Assembly: GCA_028716525.1 (NCBI GenBank)
Contig: JAQUPQ010000001.1
Coordinates: forward strand, 62,001 to 126,000
DNA: 64,000 nucleotides
Source: Terriglobia bacterium
GTDB taxonomy: Bacteria; Acidobacteriota; Terriglobia; JAIQFV01
Direction of reading: 5' to 3'
This document shows, in pieces, positions 3,733 to 4,707 of this stretch (within the stretch, counting starts at the first letter, position 1; each line of letters begins with the position of its first letter). Made by a program: the position numbers and the translations under genes. The notes beneath the pieces were generated by a model. It was not told the origin of the DNA and did not search any database. It worked only from the letters and a program-made list of their open reading frames with translations.

Positions 3733-4707
3733 TTACGAAAATTGGGGCAGCACAACGAGATCGTCTGACGGGACGGGTTCAACTTCACCCTGAACGTCGG
3801 TCCAGGCTTTGAAGCCCCCGTGGATGACGTAGGCATTGAATCCGTTTTCGCGAAGGATGTGCACCAACCTGGTGCTGGTGGCCTCGTTCCGTCAGGTGCA
3901 GTAGAGATAAATCTCCCGATCTTTGGGAAGTTTGTGCAATTGATCTTCGATGGAGGCGGGCTCCAGCCGAAACGAACCTTTGATGCGCTTGGTTCCGGAA
4001 TCGTAATAGCCGTGACTGCGCACATCGGCGATCAATATTTTTCCATCGGATTCCGGGTCCGCTAATTTTTTAACCAGGGCTTGGACGGTGGTTCGCGGGA
4101 CGGTTCGATACAAACGGTGCTTGTAATAAATTCGGATTCGGTAAATGGCATAACCAATCACGGCAAGAACCAGCAACCCCAGGACGATCTGGCTGACGGT
4201 GTGCAGACTCCTGATGATGTACTCGATCTGTCGGCTGAAGAAATATCCCAAGGCGAAGAAGGGGAGGATGTAGAGGAGTCCGCCCAGAAAATCAAGCGCT
4301 AAAAATTGCTTCAAACGCATTTTCAAACTTCCCGCCAGTGGCGGCGCCATGGTGTTAATGCCCGGAATATATTTGGCGATGACCAGCGTGATCCGCCCGC
4401 GCTTATAAAAGGACTGGGCCGAACGCAAGATGCAGGTTTCAGGATTGGCGGAGACCCGGCACAAAAGCCCCAACACCCACCATCCAGCCTTCCGCCCCAG
4501 GAAATAGAGAAGTGTATCCCCCATCAATCCCGCCACAATCGCGGATAGAATTGTTCCACCGGGGTTCATGGTCCCCAAGGCGCACGCCGCTCCACCGGCG
4601 ATCAAAAAAGGAACTGCGGGAATGGGAATTCCGACTGATTCCAGCAGCATGCTGCCGAAAACGATGAGATAGCCATAGCGACTGAGCAGATGCAATACCG
4701 TATTCAT
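3733..4707 (-). CDS. DedA membrane protein fused to rhodanese, with in-frame UGA (candidate selenocysteine)
   Basis: DedA/SNARE-associated membrane protein (about residues 1-190, several hydrophobic helices, LESVGIPIPAVPFLIAGG near the start) fused to a C-terminal rhodanese (about 205-324; IADVRSHGYYDSG...IKGSFRLEP). By ordinary decoding it stops at UGA 3892-3894 after YLYCT. The same frame then continues with 52 clearly rhodanese-like codons (RNEATSTRLVHILRENGF, VIHGGFKAW) to TAA at 3733-3735. In DedA-rhodanese proteins as I recall them the loop reads YC(T/S)C, so UGA stands at the second Cys position (residue 272). Either this is selenocysteine, supported by the hairpin at 3861-3875, or a very recent nonsense mutation or base error. 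No SelA/B/C/D genes are in the window. Confidence 0.75.
3861..3894 (-). promoter_or_regulatory. Candidate bacterial SECIS element downstream of the in-frame UGA
   Basis: Read on the minus strand, UGA (3892-3894) is followed by 16 nt and then a perfect 6-bp hairpin GCACCA-GGT-TGGTGC (3861-3875). The apical loop begins with G and contains GU, 22 nt after UGA. This fits the known layout of bacterial SECIS elements (short upper stem, small loop with an early G, loop roughly 16-37 nt from UGA). The stem lies inside coding sequence, as bacterial SECIS elements do. Confidence 0.55.

Follow-up and report, generated by a model that had tools for sequence, protein, structure and literature searches.

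A DedA-rhodanese fusion with a conserved in-frame UGA codon is a predicted membrane selenoprotein of Acidobacteriota and other bacteria

The window analyzed here, a 64,000-nucleotide stretch of the genome of a soil acidobacterium, contains on its minus strand (3733..4707) a gene for a fusion of a DedA (VTT) membrane domain with a rhodanese domain; the neighboring genes encode a lipoate ligase-like protein and alanine dehydrogenase. The frame consists of 271 codons, a TGA at codon 272 (3892..3894, minus strand), 52 further codons and a TAA (3733-3735). The translation of 4707-3733 (MNTVLH...YLYCT, the stop, RNEATSTRLVHIL...LPQFS and the terminal stop) has this TGA as its only internal stop, exactly as an earlier note on this DNA had described it. 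If the UGA is read as selenocysteine (Sec), the product is a protein of 324 residues with the loop YC-T-U-RNEATS. Pfam recognizes the VTT/DedA domain in residues 29-155 (4243..4623, minus strand; 46.5 bits against a cut-off of 33.9) and the rhodanese domain (PF00581) in residues 213-303 (3799..4071, minus strand; 43.7 bits against 22.2), the latter match running across the UGA. The AlphaFold2 model, computed with 21 family members as the input (mean pLDDT 81.7, pTM 0.58), predicts that the membrane half is helical and that a rhodanese fold comes after it, and the top PDB matches to the modeled rhodanese part in a Foldseek search are rhodaneses.

The codon at this position shows a pattern that is difficult to reconcile with an accident. 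An initial set of 21 full-length fusions from 41 related genomes, those with names being Acidobacteriota/Terriglobia metagenome-assembled genomes (MAGs), includes 12 genes with UGA and 9 with TGC or TGT in the same column. A scan of GTDB genomes added 80 named loci and, after a duplicate and a truncated copy were dropped, the combined set comprises 99 genes, of which 49 have UGA at the site and 50 have a cysteine codon; none has any other codon, TAA and TAG included, and none contains a second stop. The Cys homologues also bear out the loop that the earlier note had given for this family, YC[T/S]C-x-[N/R]EATS. As judged by record titles, although some MAG labels may be wrong, the UGA versions come from Acidobacteriota, Methylomirabilota (L119, L130) and a MAG labeled Deltaproteobacteria (L121), and Cys versions are found also in MAGs or genomes of Proteobacteria, Verrucomicrobiota and Nitrospirota. 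The in-frame UGA is not a chance occurrence because the same column is conserved as UGA in 49 of the 99 homologues across genera and phyla. In a maximum-likelihood tree of the fusion genes that was built without the site column, the Sec and Cys labels change at least 11 times, and at least 5 of these changes are forced by strongly supported branches; such repeated switching is typical of Sec/Cys exchange rather than of a single nonsense mutation. The fusion proteins of L125 and L128, from MAGs labeled Nitrosospira and Nitrospira, are identical over the tree columns, and a mislabeled or cross-binned contig is the probable source of this identity.

These comparisons bear directly on the possibility that the TGA arose from TGC or TGT by a nonsense mutation or by a sequencing or assembly error, so that the true gene encodes Cys or is a decaying pseudogene. 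One substitution would be enough, and Cys is indeed found at the site in half of the homologues, but the same UGA recurs in 48 further homologues from independent assemblies, some of them 66-68% identical to the window protein, where the 52 downstream codons are intact, and the absence of TAA, TAG and second stops is accompanied by the conservation of a downstream hairpin (see below). An isolated mutation or error, which the earlier note had considered along with decay of the downstream stretch in sister genomes, is thus refuted for the family, and for the window gene itself this explanation is extremely improbable.

The source genome (4.2 Mb in 104 contigs, 96.5% complete) encodes the complete set of sel genes that the earlier note had proposed to look for: a tRNA-Sec (selC; 70.1 bits, anticodon TCA, that is, UCA in the RNA), selA (575.6 bits), selB (391.4 bits) and selD (372.6 bits). 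The active site of SelD is itself encoded with a UGA, within the motif AAGUAAK, the known Sec site of this protein, and this UGA is an internal positive control for Sec decoding in the source genome. The selD gene (L137, G000:C101:2480-3406) also has a strong hairpin after its UGA. Among the genomes of the initial set, selB exceeds the curated cut-off in 12 of the 12 with a UGA fusion versus 5 of the 9 with a Cys fusion, and among the named genomes, in 33 of 37 versus 19 of 41. Combined, these counts amount to 45 of 49 UGA genomes versus 24 of 50 Cys genomes (Fisher P = 2e-6, a value that is only indicative given the shared ancestry of the genomes), or to 47 of 49 versus 25 of 50 when clear SelB fragments are counted as well. 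The two UGA genomes in which selB was not found (L068 and L102) are both draft MAGs. Matches to selB of about 190-198 bits, from open reading frames of close to 400 amino acids, were taken to be EF-Tu and were left out of the SelB counts.

A genome-wide reassignment of UGA to Trp or Gly would also account for the one UGA that is read through in the fusion frame. However, TGA terminates ordinary genes of the window such as hrcA, accC, folP and cdaA, which shows that UGA is not globally reassigned, the tRNA-Sec with the TCA anticodon is present along with selA, selB and selD, and homologues have Cys at the site, never Trp or Gly. The TGA stops of the conserved genes refute this explanation, which we consider even less probable than an error or a nonsense mutation.

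Within the coding sequence, 17 to 31 nucleotides after the UGA, the window gene contains a hairpin of the bacterial SECIS type, with the core GCACC-AGGUU-GGUGC (3861..3875, minus strand), five base pairs, the loop AGGUU, 21 nt and a folding energy of -8.7 to -9.8 kcal/mol. It conforms to the published bSECIS model in all four of the constraints listed in PMC13188914, and no Rfam model matches at the hairpin. Across the family, the element has the form GCRCC-loop-GGYGC at the same distance. All five pairs are retained in 48 of the 49 UGA genes, compared with 2.8 expected when the same peptide is recoded with each gene's own codon usage, versus 5 of the 50 Cys genes, compared with 1.5 expected. 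The difference persists among genes that encode the identical peptide TSARVA, where the five pairs are present in 41 of 42 UGA genes versus 1 of 11 Cys genes. The conserved Ala, Val and Ala residues are encoded in the UGA genes solely by GCC, GTG and GCG, with a single GCA in place of GCG, whereas the codons of the Cys genes vary; the loop of the UGA genes always has a G among its first two bases. Compensatory changes were detected at pair 19-29, where the window clade has A-U for G-C, and at pair 18-30, where L121 has U-A for C-G. The conservation of the hairpin in the UGA genes goes beyond the codon constraint.

Taken together, the sel genes, the column that contains only UGA or Cys, the intact downstream codons and the UGA-linked hairpin support the suggestion of the earlier note that residue 272 is Sec, and we estimate the probability that the UGA is decoded as Sec, and the fusion accordingly is a selenoprotein, at about 0.96. 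The SECIS hairpin 17-31 nucleotides downstream would direct SelB to deliver Sec-tRNA(Sec) at the UGA of codon 272, yielding the full-length protein of 324 residues. In bacteria, Sec insertion and termination compete with each other, and hence the UGA could, alternatively, serve mainly as a regulated stop. The main product would then be a protein of 271 residues, consisting of DedA with part of the rhodanese as a tail, and the long form would be made only under an ample selenium supply, so that the UGA would act as a switch that senses selenium. Such a short product would include the whole DedA half, but it would stop within the active-site loop of the rhodanese and would fail to adopt the rhodanese fold. 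Moreover, full length is the functional form because the entire protein is always produced from the 50 Cys homologues. A regulated stop is therefore an improbable reading, although less so than either an error or reassignment.

The residue that aligns with the catalytic Cys of rhodaneses, including that of the rhodanese domain in NADH persulfide reductase (3nta), is C270 (codon 3898..3900, minus strand), which is invariant in all 99 homologues. The view of the earlier note that the UGA replaces the second Cys of a C-x-C loop stands, with Sec as the second residue of C-x-U, but requires the refinement that the catalytic Cys is the retained C270. The chemistry could then proceed by acceptance of sulfane sulfur (or selenium) or of an oxidized thiol by Cys270, followed by resolution by Sec272, two residues further on, through a Cys-S-Se-Sec bond. 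A domain operating this way would not be a one-Cys sulfurtransferase but a reductase or transferase acting on thiols or persulfides, and a redox role of the fusion protein appears likely.

Selenocysteine-containing rhodaneses are not new in themselves. Of the five rhodanese-like forms of selenoprotein given in a 2026 review, one has the CxU motif (NF041203, rhodanese_LYCAU or ‘rhodanese form 3'); the review lists no DedA/VTT selenoprotein (PMC13188914). The NF041203 model has C-x-U at the same loop, where it aligns with YCTU of the window protein, but covers 126 positions without DedA, whereas the window protein adds the N-terminal DedA domain. All 21 fusion proteins scanned match this model, the window protein with 76.7 bits, below the curated cut-off of 115 bits, and none of the NCBIfam 20.0 models among the matches of the window protein describes a DedA selenofusion. 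TsoB (NF045694), to which 7 of the 21 fusion proteins show weak matches, resembles the fusion in joining a selenorhodanese to another part, but this part is DsbD-like instead of DedA and the motif is UxxxxU (PMC13188914). Apart from the fusion, a stand-alone rhodanese of about 137 residues with an in-frame TGA in YCWGHDUQLSAK was found at two loci (L135:448-861, minus strand, and L133; genomes G034 and G013), and this is possibly a second selenorhodanese with a different motif.

The DedA-rhodanese domain order is also known, from COG0586 members (PMC10127716) including Pseudomonas aeruginosa PA1209 (PMC12893004) and Xanthomonas WP_043095768.1. The two members checked, from Cupriavidus and Xanthomonas, share with the window family the signature C83/C92/K112 but have CxC, that is, Cys rather than Sec. 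C83 and C92 form a pair within the DedA half (C83-x8-C92, CRVSANPETC in the window protein; 4432..4461, minus strand) that, like C270, is invariant in 99 of the 99 fusion genes, and both are lacking in those plain DedA paralogues that can be aligned.

The family has the VTT domain but lacks part of the residue set that characterizes the undecaprenyl phosphate (Und-P) flippases of COG0586, which need two acidic residues in re-entrant helix 1 (YghB E39 and D51) and two arginines in re-entrant helix 2 (YghB R130 and R136) (PMC10127716). With the fusion and YghB numbering matched through plain DedA paralogues rather than by direct alignment, E23 (86 of the 99 fusions) and D64 are common to the fusion and the flippases. 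By contrast, the PGE/PGD motif has lost its second acidic residue, position 32 being A, V, S, I, F or others but never acidic among the residues tallied, the first flippase Arg is replaced by K112 in 99 of 99 fusions, and the second, at position 118, by N, S, A or G. Because residues needed by the Und-P flippases are absent, the DedA half is probably not an ordinary flippase and its cargo probably differs. In the literature, the link of the DedA-rhodanese fusion to Und-P has been called unclear (PMC10127716).

Positively charged residues dominate two segments, with 7 K/R versus 1 D/E in residues 72-106 and 6 versus 0 in residues 188-212; by the positive-inside rule, the rhodanese domain, which follows the last transmembrane helix, would lie on the cytosolic face together with the Cys pair. 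The Cys pair, the altered flippase residues and the shared cytosolic face favor a relay of redox equivalents or sulfane sulfur between the two halves: the selenenylsulfide might be regenerated through C83/C92 of the DedA half, which would face the same side, or passed to this pair, and the transfer might tie the redox or sulfur state to transport or gating by DedA. The relay and its coupling to the cargo or gating are speculative, and short of an even chance. More tentative still is the proposal of a distinct selenoprotein class in which a Sec-rhodanese sits on a redirected DedA with a Cys pair and relays reducing equivalents, or sulfane sulfur or selenium, to or through the DedA transporter.

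Clustering of the genes that flank the fusion loci revealed no conserved redox-partner gene near the fusion; the flanks are clade-specific housekeeping genes, named by eye from their sequences. One Cys clade has an ATP-dependent protease (Lon)-like neighbor, and a CYTH-like gene also occurs downstream of fusion genes. A polyprenyl synthetase-like gene is located upstream in 17 loci of a UGA-bearing Terriglobales clade (for example, L053-L069), possibly reflecting a link to isoprenoid lipids or mere conservation of gene order.

A search of the open-access literature found no paper that combines DedA, rhodanese and selenoprotein and none that pairs VTT with selenoprotein; the deep-Sep paper mentions none of DedA, VTT and rhodanese, and the papers found on DedA-rhodanese fusions do not mention a Sec version. 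Thus, although CxU selenorhodaneses and DedA-rhodanese fusions are each known, we found no earlier description there of the Sec form of the fusion, which is widespread in Acidobacteriota. DedA has reportedly been linked to selenite resistance in the title of a 2005 article by Ledgham et al. (cited in PMC10127716), which is suggestive only.

With the Sec fusion, the bacterial selenoproteome gains a membrane-bound member. Standard annotation would probably end the Sec fusion genes at the UGA and so drop the enzymatic half of the protein. The Cys pair together with the altered flippase residues provides a testable redox hypothesis for the unexplained DedA-rhodanese fusion, and the repeated switching between Sec and Cys within one family, with Cys versions in Proteobacteria, offers a natural setting in which to study the advantage that selenium brings.
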